Notes under the pieces: model-generated | Databases searched by the model: none | Told to the model about the DNA's origin: nothing | The model's input: only the letters and a program-made list of their open reading frames with translations | Shown here: positions 1,758-11,542 of the stretch, piece by piece | Numbering within the stretch: the stretch's first letter is position 1 | Layout of the letters: every line of letters starts with the position of its first letter | Assembly (NCBI GenBank): GCA_947626405.1 | Contig: CANQSE010000040.1 | Span: 1-11,730 of the forward strand | DNA from: an uncultured Acetatifactor sp. | GTDB lineage: Bacteria > Bacillota > Clostridia > Lachnospirales > Lachnospiraceae | Length of the DNA stretch: 11,730 nucleotides | Reading direction: 5' to 3' | Made by a program: the position numbers and the translations under genes

Positions 1758-1786
1758 ATCATACCAAAATCAGAAAGGAGGCACAA
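1758..1786 (-). promoter_or_regulatory. Possible promoter for the glycosyltransferase and hisC-like genes
   Basis: On the minus strand a TATGAT -10 box (1758-1763) lies 17 bases downstream of TTGTGC (1781-1786). The -10 matches the consensus at five of six positions, the -35 only at three. The pair sits over the last codons and stop of the prepilin peptidase gene. It would start a transcript whose leader contains the whole 16-base repeat array. No terminator is visible between the peptidase gene and the glycosyltransferase, so read-through from the pilus operon is the alternative. Confidence 0.3.
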
Positions 1787-2423
1787 CCATTTCATGGCAA
1801 ATTTTATTAAAAATCAACACAAGTAAGAACCCAAAGGCTATATATGGAACAAACGGCGCCGGTCTTATCAGCCGCCCTCCAGCTCCCGCATTTTTCTTAA
1901 AAATCTGAACGGGGACAAAGAGCAAATATGCAAACGACATGTGCGCGGCAAAAGCTTCCGCTCCCATTCCAAGCCCCGCCTCAGCCACGGCGCATACGCA
2001 GAAAGCGTAGCAGTCTGCTTTTCCGTACAGCTTTGCAAACACAAAAAGCTGTATGAGCCAGAATACGGTAAGCTCCGCGAGAATGTTCCGACCTTCCTCC
2101 CACCCTGCGCACTCCCAGAGACGCCTCCACAGAAGCGCCGCACAGGGCGCGGCGCCCGTCCACCATACAAAATTATGCACCCTGCAGCTTAAGAGATCCG
2201 TAATGCAGGCAAGCAGCAGACATCCCGCAAAAACCTCAATAAGCGCAGTCTTCAAAAAATCCTCACGGCCAAAAATCCACCGCAGCAGGGCCCCCGACGC
2301 GGTGCCCGACGCCATAATTACAAGAATTTTCTTTCCGCAGCTTATACGCACCCAGAAGCAGGGATCCGTCTTATAAATAATCCATAATCCGGCCGCGGCC
2401 ACGGCCGGAATTATAAGCGTCAT
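1770..2423 (-). CDS. A24-family prepilin peptidase of the Tad locus
   Basis: A polytopic inner-membrane aspartyl protease of 217 residues, expected to cleave the leader of the Flp-type pilin and pseudopilins encoded upstream. The two catalytic aspartates are visible in family context: D76 in LLLACITDLLSCRVHN and D137 in LYGKADCYAF, the counterpart of the GxGD/GxAD motif. The later RPAPFVPYIAFG segment matches the conserved PF.P....G stretch that closes this family. Hydrophobic segments alternate along the whole chain. There is no N-terminal cytoplasmic N-methyltransferase domain with its cysteine pairs, as expected for TadV/CpaA-type short peptidases. The ATG overlaps the TGA of the large secreted protein gene as ATGA, so translation is probably coupled, and this is the last clear gene of the pilus operon. 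Cysteine content is high (about 11), which is unusual but has no obvious role. Confidence 0.85.
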   Translation of the reverse strand: MTLIIPAVAAAGLWIIYKTDPCFWVRISCGKKILVIMASGTASGALLRWIFGREDFLKTALIEVFAGCLLLACITDLLSCRVHNFVWWTGAAPCAALLWRRLWECAGWEEGRNILAELTVFWLIQLFVFAKLYGKADCYAFCVCAVAEAGLGMGAEAFAAHMSFAYLLFVPVQIFKKNAGAGGRLIRPAPFVPYIAFGFLLVLIFNKICHEMVVPPF

Positions 2424-5400
2424 CTGAGCCTGGTGCGGAGTTCGTCCAAAACGCTTCCTTCCACCTGCACCACTCCTACAACCGGATGCTCCTCAAGCTT
2501 TTTGTCGCCTTTGTAAGCCCGCACCGTGATCTCATAGCTGCCGTTCTGCGGTGTGTACAATGGTATCATAAACTGAATTTCTTCCTTTTGCAGATACGAC
2601 GGCGCGTCCGCATAGGAATACGTCCTGTTAAGCTCAGGGTTTTCATCCGTCATCTCCTGCGGAAATTCCACCTCCACCCGGTCCGCATAGCCCCATACGG
2701 AAAATGTCAGTATACCGCTTTCCCCGTTTTTAAATACGGGAGTATGCGGCTCGATCATCCTTTCTACCTTTGCCTCCAGCGCAAACTCTGTTGTCGCATA
2801 TTCAATCTGCGTTTCATTTCCCACATTGTCAACGGCGTAAGCCATCACGGAGAAATCTCCGCAGAAAACAGGCTCAGTTTCCGTTATTTCGACAGTTATG
2901 CAGTCACCGTCCTCAGACCTGTATACCTTTTCAATAGCATTATCACTGTTTCGGATCGTCACGCAGAAATCCCTTATACCGCTTAGTCCGTCCGATGCCG
3001 ACACCTTGAGCGTAACCGTTTTTTGGTTTCTGTCGATAAGGCTCATATCGCGCATTTGTTCCATTCCGTTTATTACAGGAGCCTGGGAATCCGCAAACAG
3101 CACGATCCCGTTTCCGCCGTCCCTTTGGCTTTCTGAGAAGACTATGTCTCCCTCCCAGTCAGCTCCGGCTCCGGGCGCGACCTTTATCTTTTTTCCCGAC
3201 ATCTCAGGCTCCAGCAGAAATTTCTGCTCGGCAATTATATCCCTGTTTCCGTTTCTTCTCTCCAGAACCGAATACGGATAGCGTAAAATTTTTGAGTCAC
3301 CTTCCTGAAAAAACGAAAGCTGATTTGACTCTATACTGATTTCATCCTGCACAATTGGACAGGATGGCACGTAAATCATGTCCCCGGCGCTCTGCGAATT
3401 GTATTCGGAGCGGAAAATAACATAGTTGATCTGATAATAATCAGAACAGTAGCCGTCAATATGCGCTCTGTACCTGAGCATAAAGGGCGTCACCCCGTCG
3501 CTTCTCACAAAATATACGCCTTTCCCGGCAGCATGAACGTTTTCTCCCGTCTCTATTTCCAGCGGGTCAGTATACAACGGCCATGCCGCGCCTGTATATT
3601 TCACAGGGATATGCGCACTCCCGCCGATATTTCCGGCTGCATCCACCGCGGCCACATGAAAATAGCATGTCCCCTTCGGATCCTTTACGTCCGGTTCAAC
3701 AATTGCGCTGCATTCCTTCGTGTAGGTTCCGTTGGATTTTGTCACGCCGGTGTCGGGACTGTAATCCGTAAGATAATAGTAACCCGCCACTCCCGACGCG
3801 AGTATATTACATGTTATATTTGAACGGCACAGAGGCTCCTTTAACTGCCGCATATGGGATTGTACCATATGAAAATACTCCGTACCGTTATCGGCAGGCT
3901 CCTCCCAGAGTATTTTAAGCTTTTGTCCCCCGAGCGCTTCCATTTTTATATTGGCAGAAATTGTCTCAGGTCCCGCCAAATCCGGCGCTGCCACGCCCTC
4001 CATTGACAGTTCACTCAAAAAACCCACCTCGACCGGCCGGATTGTAACGCTTCCGTTGCCCTGGTTTTTTCCCGCCTGCATATTGTAATTCACTGCGTAA
4101 TCGGTGTTTGCGTAACTGCTTCCTCCATAGGACGGGCCTGAGCGTATAATCTGTCCGTTTGTATAACCGCAGTTATAGCCTTCCCGCATCCCGCACCCGA
4201 GAGCATATGCCCTGACGACGTACGGCTGCGGTACGGTGCTCATGCCTTCCATGTTTGTGTTGCTGCAGTGATCCCCTATAAAATAATTCGTTACGGATCC
4301 GTGGTTGTGGCCCGTGCCGTCGCAGCTGACGACATAGTGATAATATATGCGCCATGTACACCCGCAGTCATAATTATAGAAATGTTTGCGCTCATTCAGC
4401 AGTACACGGTAAGGGCTGCAGAGCTTCGTCTTTTTATCCTCCACCGTATAACATCCCCCGCCGTTTTCGGAATCTCCGGTATGACGGTGATAACATGCGG
4501 AGCTTTCGCTGTGATTGTGGCGTATGTATTCACCCGCCAGACCTCCGCGGTATCCGCCTCCGCCGCCGGATACACCGCTCTGTCCTGTTTCAGTGTGCGT
4601 CAATCCGGCGCTGCTGCCACCCGCCCCGCCGTCGCTGTACTCAGAGGCGCCGCCTCCGCCACCCGCCACAAAAAGCAGTCCTTTTTGGCTGCTTACAATC
4701 CTTGTACACCCGCCGCCGTTTCCGTAGACAGTCGCCGCTCCGCCGCCCTGATATCCGTTTCTGCCGCCTATAAAGAGCGAAAGCACCTCTCCCTTTTCAA
4801 GCCATATATCCGCGGAAACCACACCGCCTCCGCCGCCCTTATGCGTCCCGTAATCCGCTCCCTGCGCTCCCTTAAGCGTAAGCGTGTATTTTCCCGACGC
4901 CGTCACGGTAAATGACTGTTCCCCTCCTGTATAAAAGTATGGGAACTCTTTATTATCCCATACTCTCATATCGCCAGTTTCCGTTACCGGGTACCAGTTC
5001 TTTTCATCGACGCTCTGATATACTTTGTAAATCTTGTCCTTTCCGTCAGGCTGTGACCACGTCAGATCCACCGCGCCTTTCCCCATGTTGGCGATGTGGT
5101 TGTCACGGGACACAAGCTTAAGCTCCACCCACTGCGCATATAACGTCATATCCCTGACAGGGACTATGGCGTCTCCCGCTTTTCCCGCAGGTCGCTCAAA
5201 GGCCTCGTCGTAATACCATCCACCAAAGGAAAACCCCTTTCTCTCGGCTTCCGGAAGCTTCACCGCAGCGGGAGCGTATACCGCCGTTACAGTATCGACA
5301 TTTCCGTCGGGAGCTGTGAAAAAGTATACGTTGTTCTGAAATTTTCCCATAAAGGGATAAGAGAGGATCCATTCCTTAAAATACATTGTTCCCGTAATAT

Positions 5401-5953
5401 CCGATACGGGGTTTCCGCCGTTTTCTTCAAATTTTATTCTGTATCCCTGCGGCGGTACCACACTGTTATTGGGCATTACAAAGCTGCTGGCGTAATCCTG
5501 CACAACCTCAAACGGTCCCGCGCTTCCCCCATAGCTTCCTCCCGCCAGATCCATGCGCAGCATGCTCCGCGAAACTTTCCACTGGGCGTAGAGCGTTACA
5601 ACCTCCCCTTCCCCGGAAGCCAGATCCAGAATTTCCGCACCGTCTCCATAGCTTACGCCGGAGCCGTCAGGCTGCGTGTTCCATCCGTCAAACTCATATC
5701 CGCCCCTGCTGTAATTGTTACGGGTAAGACACGTGGCAGGCGTAACCTCTTTTCCCTCGTACACACGGGCGTTGTGGTACATATGCAGACTGTCATTCAT
5801 ATATCCTCCGTAAGGCTCGGAGGTGTTGGGATCATAGTGTACCCTGTAACGATTCCACGAAACACCTTTACAGCGGTGCAGACCCATCGGTGCGCCCTGT
5901 TCCAGGTTCCGGCAGAAAGGACAGAGATAATAATAATCCAGCTCCTCTTTCAT
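2420..5953 (-). CDS. Giant glycine-rich InlB-repeat surface protein, downstream frame lacking its signal peptide
   Basis: This frame encodes 1177 residues of a putative extracellular adhesin. It opens with half of a zinc-ribbon-like segment (YYYLCPFCRN, C11 and C14). An InlB B-repeat follows at about 37-125, ending LYAQW, then a second FSFGGWYYDE...LYAQW block at about 238-275. A fibronectin-like stretch covers about 290-340. A glycine-rich domain resembling the ALK/LTK-type glycine-rich fold starts near 345 (GAQGADYG, GGGGG, LFIGG, LFVAGGGGG) and resumes near 605-638, ending GNGSVTIRP. Between these (about 476-600) is a His/Cys-rich insertion. Residues 650-1170 look like Ig/fibronectin-type beta modules (for example VSASDGLSGIRDF and AYAVDNVGNET). 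No LPXTG or C-terminal membrane anchor is seen. The ATG at 5953 has a poor ribosome site and no signal peptide follows it. The secretion signal and the first CxxC are in the overlapping upstream frame, so this is probably the 3' part of a frameshifted gene. Confidence 0.85.
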   Translation of the reverse strand: MKEELDYYYLCPFCRNLEQGAPMGLHRCKGVSWNRYRVHYDPNTSEPYGGYMNDSLHMYHNARVYEGKEVTPATCLTRNNYSRGGYEFDGWNTQPDGSGVSYGDGAEILDLASGEGEVVTLYAQWKVSRSMLRMDLAGGSYGGSAGPFEVVQDYASSFVMPNNSVVPPQGYRIKFEENGGNPVSDITGTMYFKEWILSYPFMGKFQNNVYFFTAPDGNVDTVTAVYAPAAVKLPEAERKGFSFGGWYYDEAFERPAGKAGDAIVPVRDMTLYAQWVELKLVSRDNHIANMGKGAVDLTWSQPDGKDKIYKVYQSVDEKNWYPVTETGDMRVWDNKEFPYFYTGGEQSFTVTASGKYTLTLKGAQGADYGTHKGGGGGVVSADIWLEKGEVLSLFIGGRNGYQGGGAATVYGNGGGCTRIVSSQKGLLFVAGGGGGASEYSDGGAGGSSAGLTHTETGQSGVSGGGGGYRGGLAGEYIRHNHSESSACYHRHTGDSENGGGCYTVEDKKTKLCSPYRVLLNERKHFYNYDCGCTWRIYYHYVVSCDGTGHNHGSVTNYFIGDHCSNTNMEGMSTVPQPYVVRAYALGCGMREGYNCGYTNGQIIRSGPSYGGSSYANTDYAVNYNMQAGKNQGNGSVTIRPVEVGFLSELSMEGVAAPDLAGPETISANIKMEALGGQKLKILWEEPADNGTEYFHMVQSHMRQLKEPLCRSNITCNILASGVAGYYYLTDYSPDTGVTKSNGTYTKECSAIVEPDVKDPKGTCYFHVAAVDAAGNIGGSAHIPVKYTGAAWPLYTDPLEIETGENVHAAGKGVYFVRSDGVTPFMLRYRAHIDGYCSDYYQINYVIFRSEYNSQSAGDMIYVPSCPIVQDEISIESNQLSFFQEGDSKILRYPYSVLERRNGNRDIIAEQKFLLEPEMSGKKIKVAPGAGADWEGDIVFSESQRDGGNGIVLFADSQAPVINGMEQMRDMSLIDRNQKTVTLKVSASDGLSGIRDFCVTIRNSDNAIEKVYRSEDGDCITVEITETEPVFCGDFSVMAYAVDNVGNETQIEYATTEFALEAKVERMIEPHTPVFKNGESGILTFSVWGYADRVEVEFPQEMTDENPELNRTYSYADAPSYLQKEEIQFMIPLYTPQNGSYEITVRAYKGDKKLEEHPVVGVVQVEGSVLDELRTRLR

Positions 5954-6404
5954 TTCCAGGTAACATATATGTTACCCGACGGCCGCAGTCTGCACAGTAC
6001 GCCATCCAGCCCGAATAATACGGGCTGTCGCACACCGATTTTCCAAAGGAAAGCCCATGATAATTACCCGTTGGATATATGCTGTGGACACATCTGGCAA
6101 AGCGATGTGCGATCTCCCACCTCGCCACAGGCACGCTCCCCTGCCGGTCGTAATCATAATAATGCTCTCCTGTCTGCAGTTTTGGCAGGGAAGATTTAAT
6201 ACCCGTGTTTACGGATGTTTCCCAGCCATACCATGTAACATTTTGTTCCCCCGCGTTTGTGGTCCAGGCTTTGCCGTCCGCGCTGAAGCTCACATACGGG
6301 CTGTTAAATATGGTCAGCCTTCCGTCCGCCAGAGCCGTGGCGGAAAAGCCCATAAAAAATATTGCAAATAATGCGGCTTTTATCAGATTTCGTCCTGTCT
6401 TCAA
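5868..6404 (-). pseudogene. N-terminal part of the giant surface protein, cut off by a frameshift
   Basis: A 178-residue frame with a clear Sec signal peptide: charged start MKTGRNLIK, hydrophobic core, and ATALA before a predicted cut after A26. The mature part holds aromatic-rich sequence, C105 and C125, and a YCADCG motif (C137, C140). In this frame the last 28 or so residues (from about NERGAG onward) look meaningless. Shifting by one base near 5954 instead continues into DYYYLCPFC of the downstream frame, giving a CxxC...CxxC zinc-ribbon-like pair and one protein of about 1325 residues. The start is TTG at 6404 with a strong GGAGGGAG site, 23 bases after the cpaB stop. It could be a pseudogene caused by an indel, a sequencing error, a phase-variable state or a programmed +1 shift. 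Two separate proteins seem less likely because the cysteine pairs are split between the frames. As it stands, this short secreted fragment is all that would be exported. Confidence 0.7.
5959..5976. repeat. 18-base perfect palindrome at the frame junction
   Basis: GGTAACATATATGTTACC reads the same on both strands. It lies inside the coding sequence just upstream of the point where the signal-peptide frame and the large downstream frame overlap (the downstream ATG is at 5953). In RNA it could form a short hairpin with little loop. As DNA it could be a protein-binding or recombination site, or it may be chance. Confidence 0.8.
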
Positions 6405-6427
6405 AGCGCTCCCTCCTTTTTATCCTG

Positions 6428-7096
6428 CTATTTCAACAGCTTCACCACGCGCAGGGATCCTTCGTCCAACAGCGCATAAAATTCCTCAACATCGCCTTCG
6501 TCAAGAAATACGTTTACCCTGGCTGCAGCCGTAACGGTGTCAGCGTTCGGGATCACCGTACCTGACGCATCGAACACCTGATGTACAAATATGTCACGCC
6601 ACACGGGACCTTCCCCATCGCCTCCCACACTGTAAATATTTATCCTGTCGCCCGTTCGCAGCACCCCTCCTGCGACCTGATAGATGTCGTCAGCCTTAAA
6701 GCCCGCCACCACCGGCCTGTCCATCTTTGCAAGAATCATATTCATCTGCGTGAACATACCCGTCGTCAGTATAGTTACCTCCTCTATGTCAAAGCAGGCT
6801 GCCAGCCCGGCGGCCTGTCCGGCATCGGTAAGCGCCGTTGGCGGGATGCAGCTTTTGTCGAGCTGCAATTCCTTGAAATAATAATTTATGTTGTCCTCTG
6901 TTATAAGCTGCCCCCTGGGGATTTCCACTGCGGCTGCAAATACGGTTCCTCTCTCGTATCTGGTGAGAATATTTTTTTCCATCTGAAGCATTGCGATAAA
7001 CACTGCGGCGGAAGCCGCCAGAGCCGCTATTACACCCCCTGTTCTGACACGCATTGAGCCTGTTTTTGTCTTCCTGGTTTTACGCCTGGTTTTCAT
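6428..7096 (-). CDS. cpaB: CpaB/RcpC-like SAF-domain pilus assembly protein
   Basis: A 222-residue single-span protein of the Flp pilus assembly type. A basic cytoplasmic N-terminus (MKTRRKTRKTKTG) precedes one membrane segment at about 22-41. A SAF-like region follows from about 50 (TVFAAAVEIPRGQLITEDNINYY), with the usual proline/glycine pattern at the switch into the second strand. The C-terminal half (AGGVLRTGDRINIYSV near 142, then VNVFLDEGDVEEFYALLDEGSLRVVKLL) matches the RcpC/CpaB arrangement. In Gram-negative Tad systems CpaB works in the periplasm near the secretin and may bind the cell wall. In a Gram-positive cell it probably sits outside the membrane against peptidoglycan. The ATG has AGGAGG about 12 bases upstream and overlaps the TGA of the broken repeat frame before it as ATGA. 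It is followed after 23 bases by the signal-peptide frame of the large surface protein. Confidence 0.85.
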   Translation of the reverse strand: MKTRRKTRKTKTGSMRVRTGGVIAALAASAAVFIAMLQMEKNILTRYERGTVFAAAVEIPRGQLITEDNINYYFKELQLDKSCIPPTALTDAGQAAGLAACFDIEEVTILTTGMFTQMNMILAKMDRPVVAGFKADDIYQVAGGVLRTGDRINIYSVGGDGEGPVWRDIFVHQVFDASGTVIPNADTVTAAARVNVFLDEGDVEEFYALLDEGSLRVVKLLK

Positions 7097-7288: not shown

Positions 7289-7873
7289 TCAGTTTTCACT
7301 GTCAGCCACCACATCTACAAGCTTTCCTTTTCTAGCTTCCACCGTCACACCCAGAAATCCTTTTATCGTGTAGGAAATCTCGCTGTATACGCCTGTTGAT
7401 TCTATAAGGATCCCGTTTGGAGAAACCGCGCTTCCCAGCGCTTCTTCCCTTCTGCTCACATCCCTGCTGCGTCCAAAGCTCGTTATTTCCACCCTGTCGC
7501 CCTTAACGTTATACACAGTGTAATTCAGTATTGTCACAGGTCCTGTGATAAGTCCCTGCGAGCGGCACTCCCACTGATCGTCCAGATTCAGGTTTTCCTT
7601 TACCGCCCTGCGATATCTCTCATACGCCTCTTTCGGATCGCTTATGCTCAATGTGTGTGTTCTGCCGTATTCCTCTATGTCTACCACGGCGGACGCAAGA
7701 TTCGACAGGGCAAGAGCGTCCTCAAGGTACTGTGAGGACGCCACATACACATCCGTCTGCAAATGAGCGCACAGCATGATACCGAGAAACACGAGAAAAA
7801 ATATTCCGGCCGCCCATTCCGTCTGACCGCTCTCAGTGCTTGGCAGTGGAAACCCTCTTTTCCCGAATTTCAT
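7289..7873 (-). CDS. Single-span Tad pseudopilin-like protein
   Basis: A 194-residue protein I do not recognise by name. It has a short N-terminal region (MKFGKRGFPLPSTESGQTEW), one hydrophobic segment at about 21-38 (WAAGIFFLVFLGIMLCAHL), then a soluble domain. A helix follows the membrane segment directly (VASSQYLEDALALSNLASAVVDIEEYG), then a beta-rich part that includes two cysteines flanking the segment. This layout is that of TadE/TadF-type minor pilins, which prime or decorate Flp pili after cleavage by the prepilin peptidase. The start at ATG 7873 is chosen because GGAGGGGG lies immediately upstream; it overlaps the preceding gene by 41 bases. The frame is open farther upstream, but that extension lies entirely within the preceding gene and does not resemble a leader. 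It stops with SEN just before the 24-base repeat tract, and the tract may be its lost tail. Confidence 0.7.
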   Translation of the reverse strand: MKFGKRGFPLPSTESGQTEWAAGIFFLVFLGIMLCAHLQTDVYVASSQYLEDALALSNLASAVVDIEEYGRTHTLSISDPKEAYERYRRAVKENLNLDDQWECRSQGLITGPVTILNYTVYNVKGDRVEITSFGRSRDVSRREEALGSAVSPNGILIESTGVYSEISYTIKGFLGVTVEARKGKLVDVVADSEN

Positions 7874-8189
7874 ACTCCCCCTCCAGAATCCCTCTGATCT
7901 GCAGCACAATTTCTTCCCCGTATCCTGCCTGGTTAAACGTCGTTCCTCCAAGATCAATTTCGCTCAATCCTGTCTCTCTCAATTCGCCTATGAGCAAAAT
8001 GCGATCGGGATCCGACAGCCTGCCCTCAGTTTCCATCCGCAGTATATATTTTCTTGCAATCTGATCCACCTGGGCTTTCCTGCGGACCGCTCCCGCGTTT
8101 TGCATGTAGGCCAGCATTACCACCGTCATTGCAAGCATACAGAGCCCCGCCGCCACTATATCCGCCATGTTTCCCTTTTCCTTTTTCAT
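7833..8189 (-). CDS. Small DUF4320-like membrane-anchored Tad protein
   Basis: A 118-residue protein with a short charged start (MKKEKGN), one hydrophobic segment at about 9-29 (ADIVAAGLCMLAMTVVMLAYM), and a C-terminal soluble part with an amphipathic helix (VRRKAQVDQIARKYILRMETEG) and short strands. Its size, layout and place after the Flp-like pilin fit the DUF4320 family found in clostridial Tad loci, but I am matching by pattern only. A minor pseudopilin role is likely by context. The chosen ATG overlaps the pilin gene TGA as ATGA, with GGAG seven bases upstream. A later ATG at 8168 with AAGGGA is possible and would start closer to the membrane segment. The end of this gene overlaps the next start by 41 bases, which points to tight translational coupling. 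Confidence 0.7.
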   Translation of the reverse strand: MKKEKGNMADIVAAGLCMLAMTVVMLAYMQNAGAVRRKAQVDQIARKYILRMETEGRLSDPDRILLIGELRETGLSEIDLGGTTFNQAGYGEEIVLQIRGILEGEYEIREKRVSTAKH

Positions 8190-8407
8190 CCCGACACTCC
8201 CGAGAGAACCTTCTGCGCCTCCGTTGTCATGGACGTCACGATTGTCTCTATGAATTTCTGCAGACTGTCCTTCATGACCACGCACAGAAGCAGCGCGATA
8301 ATACACAGCCCTACCGTCACAAGTATTCCGTCGATACCTTCCTCCTTCTCAAGCCCCTTTTTGAAAACTCTTTTAATTCTGTAAAACATGACTCTTATTC
8401 CGTTCAT
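8186..8407 (-). CDS. Flp1-like type IVb pilin
   Basis: A 73-residue prepilin, likely the main subunit of the Tad pilus. A basic leader (MNGIRVMFYRIKRVFKKGLEKEEG) ends in glycine and is followed by a long hydrophobic helix (ILVTVGLCIIALLLCVVM, about 28-45) and a short polar tail. This matches the Flp1-like family of Gram-positive Tad loci in size and layout. Cleavage after G24 or G27 by the co-encoded peptidase is plausible. The glutamate usually found five residues after the cut in Flp pilins (G/XXXXEY) is missing for either site, while an acidic KEE precedes it. ATG 8407 is preferred because AAAGGGG lies four to five bases before it; a GTG at 8422 is in frame but overlaps that site. The gene follows TadC after 104 bases and overlaps the next gene by ATGA. 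Confidence 0.75.
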   Translation of the reverse strand: MNGIRVMFYRIKRVFKKGLEKEEGIDGILVTVGLCIIALLLCVVMKDSLQKFIETIVTSMTTEAQKVLSGVSG

Positions 8408-8427
8408 TTTTTCCCCTTTCACATGTT

Positions 8428-8511: not shown

Positions 8512-9351
8512 TTAAAAATTTACCGCCGCTCCAAACATATATGAGACGCAGGCGTAGAGCGCAAGGCCAAGGACAATGGCAAGCACGCCGAGCTGATAAA
8601 ACGTTATGCTCCGATCAAGCGCCCCTTTTCGTCTCTCCAAAACGGCGGCCTCCATGTCCTTAACCTGCTCGCCTATATCTCCGAGCAGCTCAAGAGCCTG
8701 TCCGGATTCAAGCGCCTGAAGAATAGTCACGCACAGGGCGTCTATATAACGATTGTCAAACTTCGCCTGAAAGCGTTCAAGCGCGTCAAAAATATCGGCC
8801 TTCATCACAATGTCTCCCGCCAGAGAAAGCAGCGCGTCCCGAAGTCTCCTCTCCCGCACGCTGCCATAACATTCCGCAAGCGCGTCAGTCACATAGACTC
8901 CGGCGCGAATCTGAATTTCAAGGGCATGGTACACAAGCTTTAATTCCGGCAGGAGCTTTTCATTGTCCTTTCCGTTGCCGTACAAAAGATACCATGACGG
9001 CAGAAAATACATTACGATTCCGGCAAAAACCCCCAGCCCCGCGTCAACCGCTGCGCAGGCAGCCAGACCGGTCAGTGCAAGCAGTATCCGGATCAAAAGA
9101 TAACGCTCCGGATTGATCCATGCACCGTAATGATACGAAGCGCCGTTTTTTTCAAGCCACCGTACGGTATTTTGATACCATCCGCTGTCCCTTTCCCTCT
9201 TTTTTAAAAATCCGCTGATCTCCCGCCATGTGGTGAGCACAAGCCTGTCCGGACGATATTCCTTCCCAAGACACCGAAACATCGCAAACACAAGCACCGC
9301 CGTCACCATCGGAATTATTTTTAATATGCTCTGAATCTGAACCTGTTCCAA
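8512..9351 (-). CDS. tadC: TadC-like pilus platform protein (T2SSF domain)
   Basis: An integral membrane protein of 279 residues with a GspF/T2SSF-type domain. It has an N-terminal hydrophobic segment (IIPMVTAVLVFAMFRCLG), a central hydrophobic pair near 80-125 (LLIRILLALTGLAACAAV and GIVMYFLPSWYLLYG), a cytoplasmic helical region, and a C-terminal segment (LGVLAIVLGLALYACVSYMFG). The helical region contains the usual ALEIQIRAGVYVTDALAECYG and ALERFQAKFDNRYIDALC stretches, where conserved helices meet the ATPase. With TadB it forms the inner-membrane platform on which TadA drives pilin addition. The start is assigned to TTG 9351 because a GGGAGG site lies six bases before it. An upstream in-frame start near 9468 would overlap tadB by 61 bases and has no leader-like sequence. 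The gap to tadB is then 56 bases. Confidence 0.8.
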   Translation of the reverse strand: MEQVQIQSILKIIPMVTAVLVFAMFRCLGKEYRPDRLVLTTWREISGFLKKRERDSGWYQNTVRWLEKNGASYHYGAWINPERYLLIRILLALTGLAACAAVDAGLGVFAGIVMYFLPSWYLLYGNGKDNEKLLPELKLVYHALEIQIRAGVYVTDALAECYGSVRERRLRDALLSLAGDIVMKADIFDALERFQAKFDNRYIDALCVTILQALESGQALELLGDIGEQVKDMEAAVLERRKGALDRSITFYQLGVLAIVLGLALYACVSYMFGAAVNF

Positions 9352-9407
9352 AATCCGCCTCCCTGTTTTGCCGCCTCTTTTTTCGCTTAACGGCTCCGAA
9401 ACTTTCC

Positions 9408-10349
9408 TTAAGACTGCGCACGGTACATCTGAGCGGCAAACAGACAGAAGATCAAAAGCATACCGCATATTCCGATTTTTCCCGGGACAGTTCCCGTCAC
9501 AAGCTTTGCAACCGAAATTCCGGTCAGCGATCCAACCGTGAACAGGACCGCAGCTGACATTACCAACAGAAGCGCCATATTAACCGCCGCCTCACGCAGC
9601 ATGACGCGCCTCTCCTGAGATATGCGCATATATTCCCTCAGACTCTTTCTGCTGCTTTTTACAAGAGCCGAGAAGTCCGCACAGTGACGAATACTGATCT
9701 CCATGTTTCTCGCCAGCTCCTTAAATTTCGGGTGCTCAATCTTTTCCGCCATGGACAACAGCGCCAATCCCGAATCCCCCGTCGTGCGGGCCTCATGGCA
9801 GCACTGATCCAGGGCGCTTCTGAGCGGCTCGTCCATATACCGGCTCACCTGGCTGAAAACGCCTGTTGCCTCCGCTGCCGTAACGCTGTAATTTCCCAGA
9901 AAATCCAGAAGCTTCATCAGATTGCTTCCCACCCTTCGCAGATTTATGCTCCGGAGGGCTTTTAACACAAATGCTTCTCCCAGCATAAGAAATGCGGACG
10001 CTGCCGCTCCCTGCCAAAAACCCGCCGCAAAGCACAACAGCGGAAAAAGCGCCGCAAAGAGTACCATATTTCCTGCGATCCACCATTCCACACCAAGTCT
10101 CGGGAAACGGTTTTTAAGACCGCTGTACTGAAGCTGCCGCTCCATCCACACCAAAAACGTGTGTCTGTTCTGCAGTTTAAGAAGCTGCTTTCTCCCTTCC
10201 AGCGTCCTTTGCCTTGCCGCCGAGTCCAGATCCGCCGCCGTCCTCTTTGCCAGCTCCAGGAAACGCCGAAAAATCCGGATTTCATAAAACAGGAGCCAAA
10301 AGCCCGAGAACAAAAGCAAATATATCACTGACAAAATAAACGCTCTCAT
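9408..10349 (-). CDS. tadB: TadB-like pilus platform protein (T2SSF domain)
   Basis: An integral membrane protein of 313 residues, the first of two paralogous T2SSF proteins. It opens with a membrane segment (ILSVIYLLLFSGFWLLFY, residues 4-21). A linker rich in basic residues follows, then a hydrophobic pair near 90-125 (GNMVLFAALFPLLCFAAGFW and SAFLMLGEAFVL), the cytoplasmic T2SSF helical core at about 140-235 (LMKLLDFLGNYSVTAAEATGVFSQ, then FKELARNMEISIRHCADFSALV), and two C-terminal membrane segments (MALLLVMSAAVLFTVGSLTG and GICGMLLIFCLFAAQMY). This is the standard TadB layout. It should form a heteromeric platform with the next gene product and contact the TadA ATPase. The ATG at 10349 has GGAAAGGA five bases upstream and follows the ATPase stop after 26 bases. 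Confidence 0.82.
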   Translation of the reverse strand: MRAFILSVIYLLLFSGFWLLFYEIRIFRRFLELAKRTAADLDSAARQRTLEGRKQLLKLQNRHTFLVWMERQLQYSGLKNRFPRLGVEWWIAGNMVLFAALFPLLCFAAGFWQGAAASAFLMLGEAFVLKALRSINLRRVGSNLMKLLDFLGNYSVTAAEATGVFSQVSRYMDEPLRSALDQCCHEARTTGDSGLALLSMAEKIEHPKFKELARNMEISIRHCADFSALVKSSRKSLREYMRISQERRVMLREAAVNMALLLVMSAAVLFTVGSLTGISVAKLVTGTVPGKIGICGMLLIFCLFAAQMYRAQS

Positions 10350-10375: not shown

Positions 10376-11542
10376 TTACAATATCCTCTTATAAATCAGG
10401 CTTTTCTTTCCGGGGTCCCATCCGCCGCACTCAAAAATCTCTTTTACACGAAAGTGCTCCATAAAGATCAGCGTCTGAAAACAATCCATCATTCTCATAA
10501 GCTCATCCCTTGAATACCTGCTTGCGTACATTGCGTAGTCCACCAGCTTGTCCGGCGCACGGTCCGCCGACGGCGCATGTATCGTGGCTGCGCAAAGCTG
10601 TCCCGTATATGCGGCGTTAAGCAGATATAAGGCCTCCGCGCCCTTAACCTCCCCGATGATAAAAAAATCCACATCCATTGTCAGTCCGGCTATGCTGATA
10701 TGCTCGAGGTCATAACTAATCTGCTGTTCCCCCGTCCCGGGCAGCGAGTGAAGAAACATCATGTCGGGGTGGAAACGTGTTGTGAGCTCGTCCGCCTGCT
10801 GCGCAACCAGCACCGCCACATCGTCCGGCAGCGTCTCCTTAAGCGCGTTTAAAAGCGTGGTTTTTCCGGAAGAATTACCTCCGCATATCAGGGTTGAGCC
10901 CTGCCTGAAACGACTGACAAGAAGCTCCGCCGTGTCACGATCCATCATGTTCTGCTCAATAAGCTCATTCATCTGAGGAAAATGCCTTGGAACCTTTCTG
11001 ATACAGAGATAGGGCTCACTGTATGTGTTTACAAGAGGCATCGAAACCGTAAAACGCAGGATAAAATCCGGATGGCTCTCATTGTCGGTGAATCTCTGAA
11101 TTGCATTAAGATTTGAAATGTTGACCTGATTTCTTGTGGCTATGTAATCAATAAACTGCCTGTACTCCCTGGGCGAAGCGAAAGCCACATCTGCGGCCAT
11201 ACGCTGCCCTTTTTTCTTGATGCGGATGTTGTCATAGCTCACAACCCTTATATCGGATATGCTCCTGTCGTCAATCAGCTCCGACAGCCTGGAATAACCG
11301 AAGATATAGCGTTCAAAATCTTCCAGCAGCTTTTTCCTGCTCTCCTGAGACGAAGGATAATATGTGGCTATGTGGCCTGCCGCCTCTGCCAGAAAGGCCT
11401 CTTTCGATAGCTGGCCCTTTCGCATCTGCATCAGAGACTGCTGCTTCTGGGTAGTGTAGTCATTCACCAGCTCCTGCAGCAGATCCGTCCCGACGGCATG
11501 CTGTTCTGTTTTAATGTTACAGATACCTCCCTTCCCGGACAA
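10376..11542 (-). CDS. cpaF: TadA/CpaF-family pilus assembly ATPase
   Basis: A cytoplasmic hexameric-type secretion ATPase that powers Flp pilus assembly. The N-terminal domain contains DDRSISDIRV (91-100) and PYLCIRKVPR (177-186), both characteristic of CpaF. Walker A is GGNSSGKTT (221-229, K227), the Walker B region is MDVDFFIIGEVKG (289-301, E298) and the His box is ATIHAPS (319-325, H322). Differences from the usual family text are Gln-Gln in the Asp-box position (VAQQADEL, near 246-253, where IEDTAEL is common) and GEVKG instead of GEVRG. The start is uncertain. The longest frame begins at TTG 11542 with a weak upstream site, but a strong AGGGAGG lies inside it at 11532-11526, ten bases before an in-frame ATT at 11515. 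A start at 11515 would remove nine residues. It is the first gene after the promoter and heads the operon. Confidence 0.87.
   Translation of the reverse strand: MSGKGGICNIKTEQHAVGTDLLQELVNDYTTQKQQSLMQMRKGQLSKEAFLAEAAGHIATYYPSSQESRKKLLEDFERYIFGYSRLSELIDDRSISDIRVVSYDNIRIKKKGQRMAADVAFASPREYRQFIDYIATRNQVNISNLNAIQRFTDNESHPDFILRFTVSMPLVNTYSEPYLCIRKVPRHFPQMNELIEQNMMDRDTAELLVSRFRQGSTLICGGNSSGKTTLLNALKETLPDDVAVLVAQQADELTTRFHPDMMFLHSLPGTGEQQISYDLEHISIAGLTMDVDFFIIGEVKGAEALYLLNAAYTGQLCAATIHAPSADRAPDKLVDYAMYASRYSRDELMRMMDCFQTLIFMEHFRVKEIFECGGWDPGKKSLIYKRIL

Follow-up and report, generated by a model that had tools for sequence, protein, structure and literature searches.

Slippage-controlled pili have been described in Bifidobacterium breve (PMC9187656). 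The closest known counterparts of the gene examined here are the large secreted proteins of Lachnospiraceae that carry List_Bact_rpt repeats (PF09479, InlB B-repeat-like), which have the same domain, architecture, locus and length. Copies from 98 further genomes of the genus, and the copy in the complete genome of Lachnospiraceae bacterium GAM79 (L096), are unbroken at the point of interest, whereas the gene described below is cut by a net loss of 38 nt. We know of no described function for the very large secreted Tad-locus protein of this gut genus.

The Tad locus and its giant gene

The window, meaning the whole stretch of DNA analysed, is 11,730 nt long, and every gene described in it lies on the (-) strand. 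The locus begins with a TadA-like ATPase gene (10376..11542; Pfam T2SSE, 52.9 bits against a cut-off of 24.9), for which the best NCBIfam hit was a TadA family ATPase below cut-off (89.6 vs 373.15). It continues with a TadB-like T2SSF gene (9408..10349; Pfam 27 bits, above the cut-off of 25.2), a TadC-like T2SSF gene (8512..9468; 25.1 bits, just below the same cut-off of 25.2), a small Flp-pilin-like gene labelled by position and size (8186..8422), and two genes labelled by position, one pseudopilin-like (7833..8306) and one TadE/pseudopilin-like (7289..7957). A CpaB/RcpC-like (SAF) gene (6428..7096; below curated cut-offs) is the upstream neighbour of the giant gene. The downstream neighbour is a prepilin-peptidase-like gene (1770..2423), labelled by position and with no Pfam or NCBIfam hit. 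The same gene order was found in 10 of 10 loci, taken from nine genomes of the genus and strain GAM79 (AP018536.1), and in all ten the giant-protein gene sits between the CpaB-like and prepilin-peptidase-like genes as it does in the window. Against the relative G005, identity is 91% for the TadA-like ATPase, 52% and 55% for the N-terminal and C-terminal parts of the giant protein, and 53% for the prepilin-peptidase-like gene; few genes of the locus change as fast as that of the giant protein (2420-6404).

The second gene downstream of the one for the Cys-rich secreted protein is a GT2 glycosyltransferase gene (499-1566, (-) strand), with a SunS-family peptide S-glycosyltransferase as its best NCBIfam hit, below cut-off. 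It occurs near the giant gene in seven of the ten loci and was not found in L103, L105 or L096, of which the L096 and L105 sequences end soon after the Tad locus.

In the window the giant gene is represented by two open reading frames. The N-terminal frame (5868..6404, (-) strand) has 178 codons and a TTG start at 6404 preceded by a Shine-Dalgarno-like AGGAGG (6412..6417, (-) strand; read by eye). Read by eye, it opens with a signal-peptide-like stretch, which is followed by a Cys-rich domain as far as CADC (C137/C140) and then by about 30 residues that are out of frame. The C-terminal frame (2420..5953, (-) strand) has 1177 codons, begins inside the motif DYYYLCPFC, which supplies the second CxxC pair (C11/C14), and shows no signal peptide at its start. 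It contains List_Bact_rpt repeats scoring above curated cut-offs (Pfam PF09479, 53.7 bits vs 27; TIGR02543, 26.8 vs 20.95), a glycine-rich stretch and a conserved C-terminus. An internal ATG stands at codon 52 with GGAGG four bases upstream, and the gene call for this fragment in the protein collection (P0001) begins at that codon. The two frames overlap by 86 bases (5868..5953, (-) strand) in different registers, and a TAA in the register of the C-terminal frame just upstream of it (5972..5974, (-) strand) bars that frame from upstream extension. The first-pass annotation had given this anatomy correctly in its coordinates, both cysteine pairs, overlap and difference of register. It had also called the end of the N-terminal frame unconvincing; these last residues are a shifted reading of the family's YYYLCPFC region (shifted-frame match, E 3.3e-4). 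The names adhesin and zinc-ribbon-like, which it used for the protein and its motif, are putative.

One unbroken gene in relatives

The two parts were each searched against 61 genomes; matches to the N part came from 24 of them and matches to the C part from 29, the source genome being counted in each. Eighteen of the 24 non-self places matched by the N part lie in open frames of 1,338-1,556 codons, and the remaining six lie in frames of 229, 242, 597, 620, 723 and 1,106 codons. A wider search took P0122, a homologue spanning the join, as its query against 138 genus genomes and gave matches in 99 (including the source genome) and none in 39. All 103 non-self places, from 98 other genomes of the genus, run stop-free from before the first CxxC past the second (query 174-177), and the window alone among the 104 loci is split at the linker between the two pairs, giving two pieces. 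The open frame is 1,322-1,650 codons long in 77 of the 103 places and 229-1,106 codons in the other 26, so the full-length form is the rule without being universal. Several of the shorter frames are near 580 or 700 codons, and the set may comprise contig ends, shorter architectures or breaks elsewhere; in G023 both ends of the protein are kept within 597 codons.

In the protein collection 7,999 candidates were scored and 1,237 proteins matched, of which the best 120 were taken. Among these listed matches all 119 non-self full-length homologues (1,313-1,519 residues) run unbroken across the linker, as judged by motif for 110 and by eye for nine with variant motifs. In all ten syntenic loci the N part is in frame with the best C-part alignment, and a protein query found no second copy of the gene in the source genome, which is 84.85% complete. 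From these comparisons the proposal of one ancestral gene is strongly supported, with the two frames as its two ends, at a length of about 1,340 residues where about 1325 had been suggested. The proposal also withstood the check set for it, since the homologues are not consistently separate genes and chains carrying CADC- and YYYLCPFC-type motifs together were found.

The missing block

When the DNA was aligned with six relatives, the window lacked one single block of 38 nt at the join (5963..5964, (-) strand), and all six relatives are gap-free there. The segment encoded by the block, YMS-x-EAA, separates the two CxxC pairs; across the 25 rows of alignment A1 its Y never varies, and its M and S each reach at least 90% conservation. 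The distance from the CxxC[G/N] motif to the YYYLCP-type motif is 25-31 residues in motif-bearing relatives and 28 in the six aligned ones, against 46 nt in the window; two stop-containing rows in this comparison were chance matches. In this protein, identity to the nearest relative is only about 55%, so the 38 nt must be read as a net figure against relatives. In a confident structure model of the intact homologue P0122 (mean pLDDT 88.3), the missing block covers a helix at 153-157 between the two Cys pairs, as mapped by eye.

The one-base frame change first proposed, near 5954, is therefore not borne out: a one-base insertion or deletion is ruled out by the DNA alignment, and the join lies about 10 bases from that position, between 5964 and 5963. 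There is no homopolymer of at least four bases at 5871-6020 of the window and no tandem or direct repeat at the join, around which only two 10-nt inverted pairs were found. With no more than these pairs, and no second place in the source genome found by a protein query, an invertible or duplicated element was rejected.

We consider it probable that a recent, short, out-of-frame deletion has inactivated the gene in this strain. In the genus there is one gene, usually of 1,322-1,650 codons, for a large secreted protein in the Tad pilus locus. The deletion, of 38 nt when measured against near relatives, would have struck the N-terminal Cys-rich domain, between its two CxxC pairs, and thrown the remainder of the gene out of frame. 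The cell would then make at most a 178-residue secreted stub with a nonsense end, while the C-terminal 1,177 codons would go untranslated or, if started internally, give a cytoplasmic product; a start at the codon-52 ATG is possible and would yield a protein without a signal peptide. Loss of function is thus the likeliest state of the gene in this strain. About one in 21-30 substitutions in the C part would create a stop, and 62-88 neutral substitutions (1.8-2.5% of sites) would bring a 95% chance of at least one, but none is present in the 1,177 codons. The break should accordingly be young if the C part is no longer under selection, and the stop-free downstream frame supports the earlier suggestion that it is recent. 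On this evidence the annotation should be corrected to one broken gene, in place of two genes or a one-base shift.

Alternative explanations

An assembly or consensus fault is unlikely but is the chief competitor: the gene would be whole in the source cells, and the draft contig would have lost 38 nt as it was built, for example from mixed strains. The draft consists of 287 contigs totalling 1.97 Mb at the completeness given above, and the window is the whole of one of them (C40). The protein collection has the broken allele from a single contig, and a look for another assembly of the species gave none; with one assembly only, a real deletion and an assembly fault look alike. That the gene is among the two most variable of the locus favours strain mixing. 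Against such a fault, a 38-nt loss is not typical of base-calling errors, the join has no collapsible repeat, and each of the other complete genes of the window is covered for the most part, in one frame, by its best single alignment to G005 or G035. The first-pass suggestion of a sequence error thus fails for a single miscalled base, given the 38 missing nucleotides, and survives as a candidate in the form of an assembly fault.

The frequency of breaks in the same draft was gauged by setting 689 open frames, drawn from about 1.0 Mb of G005, against 0.36 Mb of the source genome (the window plus 20 of its 287 contigs, truncated at 20 kb). Of 63 orthologue-like frames, 55 were unbroken, three were split and five had internal stops. 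The splits comprised the gene under study, a clear one-base break (L114, about 7548-7566 on C9) in a transporter-like gene, presumably of MFS type, that is unbroken in G005, and a 740-codon G005 frame represented by two frames with little similarity between them (L123, about 13667-13741 on C18), which may be a gene fission or a break. One of the stop-containing frames (L116, on C11) is a gene, which we take to be CbiB-like, with one internal stop relative to G005; the other four may not be real genes. The one-base break and the second split frame count towards an assembly fault, and show that the draft is not free of breaks, whether real or artefactual.

A phase-variable switch, of which the window would hold one state of a reversible ON/OFF change, is very improbable for this strain, and the earlier term "switchable" does not suit a locus whose block is missing from the DNA and whose join lacks a slippage repeat. 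The idea draws on broken copies that recur in public data and on a comparable intragenic tract that controls pili in Bifidobacterium breve (PMC9187656). The join has none of the homopolymers or repeats on which slipped-strand mispairing acts, and slippage could not reverse a 38-nt loss. None of the 103 other genus places is broken at the linker. Nor is the linker a slippage hot spot in the genus: homopolymers of at least six bases have a density of 0.56 per kb in 38 distinct linkers and of 1.0 per kb in the rest of the gene. A run of seven G was seen in the CxxC linker of the intact homologue at L103 (genome G122) and is a possible slippage site.

Broken copies in public data were surveyed with two further protein searches, whose length rule confines them to short proteins; one gave 5 non-self hits and the other 67, among which the 5 recur. 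Seventeen of the 67 end at profile columns 134-164, but several of the linker-ending proteins have no out-of-frame tail and are perhaps contig ends, so that clustering of the ends is not taken as proof. Four ends (P0127, P0129, P0135 and P0187; CLLYTSDAADE, DVYKRQ) resemble what we take to be translated sequencing-adapter read-through at contig ends. Short proteins with a tail of at least five residues numbered 42, including that of the window, and 18 of these tails, 17 of them non-self, match shifted family DNA at E<=0.05. Seven of the 17 break in or at the edge of the same linker (columns 133-164); since P0124, P0125 and P0126 were rows of the search alignment, and P0125 and P0155 match only at E 0.047, this apparent clustering is biased and weak. 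Further break sites lie at columns 103-118, 215 and 227. Outside the seven, P0183 and P0188 resemble pieces of the P0144 and P0156 alleles.

The strongest case for a switch comes from P0136, a protein of 188 residues that stands for 50 member sequences on 25 contigs of up to 104 kb. Up to residue 165, all of its 5-residue words recur in 10 intact full-length alleles; past that point it reads EKILFFIITFVLFAGT where the intact alleles read EKNPVFYYYLCPFC, a tail that would fit the gain or loss of one base in an A-run. The same out-of-frame tail, in the same linker, is present in P0124. P0136 is a frame-broken allele not confined to one assembly, and a slippage switch in its lineage is possible from the sequences compared. 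It is unlikely that the linker is a recurrent point of inactivation in gut Lachnospiraceae, with the short P0136-type A-run as an ON/OFF switch in some lineages and the window as an irreversible OFF variant. If such breaks are reversible, they would offer a testable switch of a surface structure in common gut commensals. The P0136-type alleles are accordingly a lead worth keeping, while the break in the window is of low interest alone.

Programmed ribosomal frameshifting, joining both frames into one protein, is suggested by a downstream frame open for 1,177 codons and overlapping the upstream one, but is barely credible here: a frame change at the linker occurs in none of the relatives examined, where a programmed event should be conserved. 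Its +1 product would also miss the YMS-x-EAA block, so a simple ribosomal step would not yield the protein of the family. No recognised +1 signal was seen by eye, and "recoded", another of the states first considered, is disfavoured for the window by the absence of the block from its DNA and of any slippage repeat. Equally improbable are two working genes, a small secreted protein and a separate C-terminal one, in spite of the good ribosome-binding site of the N part and the internal ATG with its GGAGG at which P0001 starts, because the parts are never separate in the relatives examined, the C part lacks a signal peptide and begins inside a domain, the N part terminates in out-of-frame residues, and the CxxC pairs of what is modelled as one region would be divided between the two products.

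Relation to known systems

An out-of-frame deletion thus remains the preferred reading for the window, in a very large, fast-evolving secreted protein whose gene holds a constant position in the Tad locus throughout a gut genus and of which broken alleles circulate. The gene is like the ordinary frame-break pseudogenes of Antonov et al. 2013 (PMC3711429) in that one genome stands against unbroken relatives and no recoding motif was seen. It is unlike them in its probable cause, a multi-base deletion where theirs is a point indel. From the sortase-dependent pilus of Bifidobacterium breve (PMC9187656) the window differs in being a Tad locus with no tract at the break; it resembles that system in that the gene concerned is pilus-related, encodes a surface protein of a gut commensal and belongs to a wider family in which frame-broken alleles occur.
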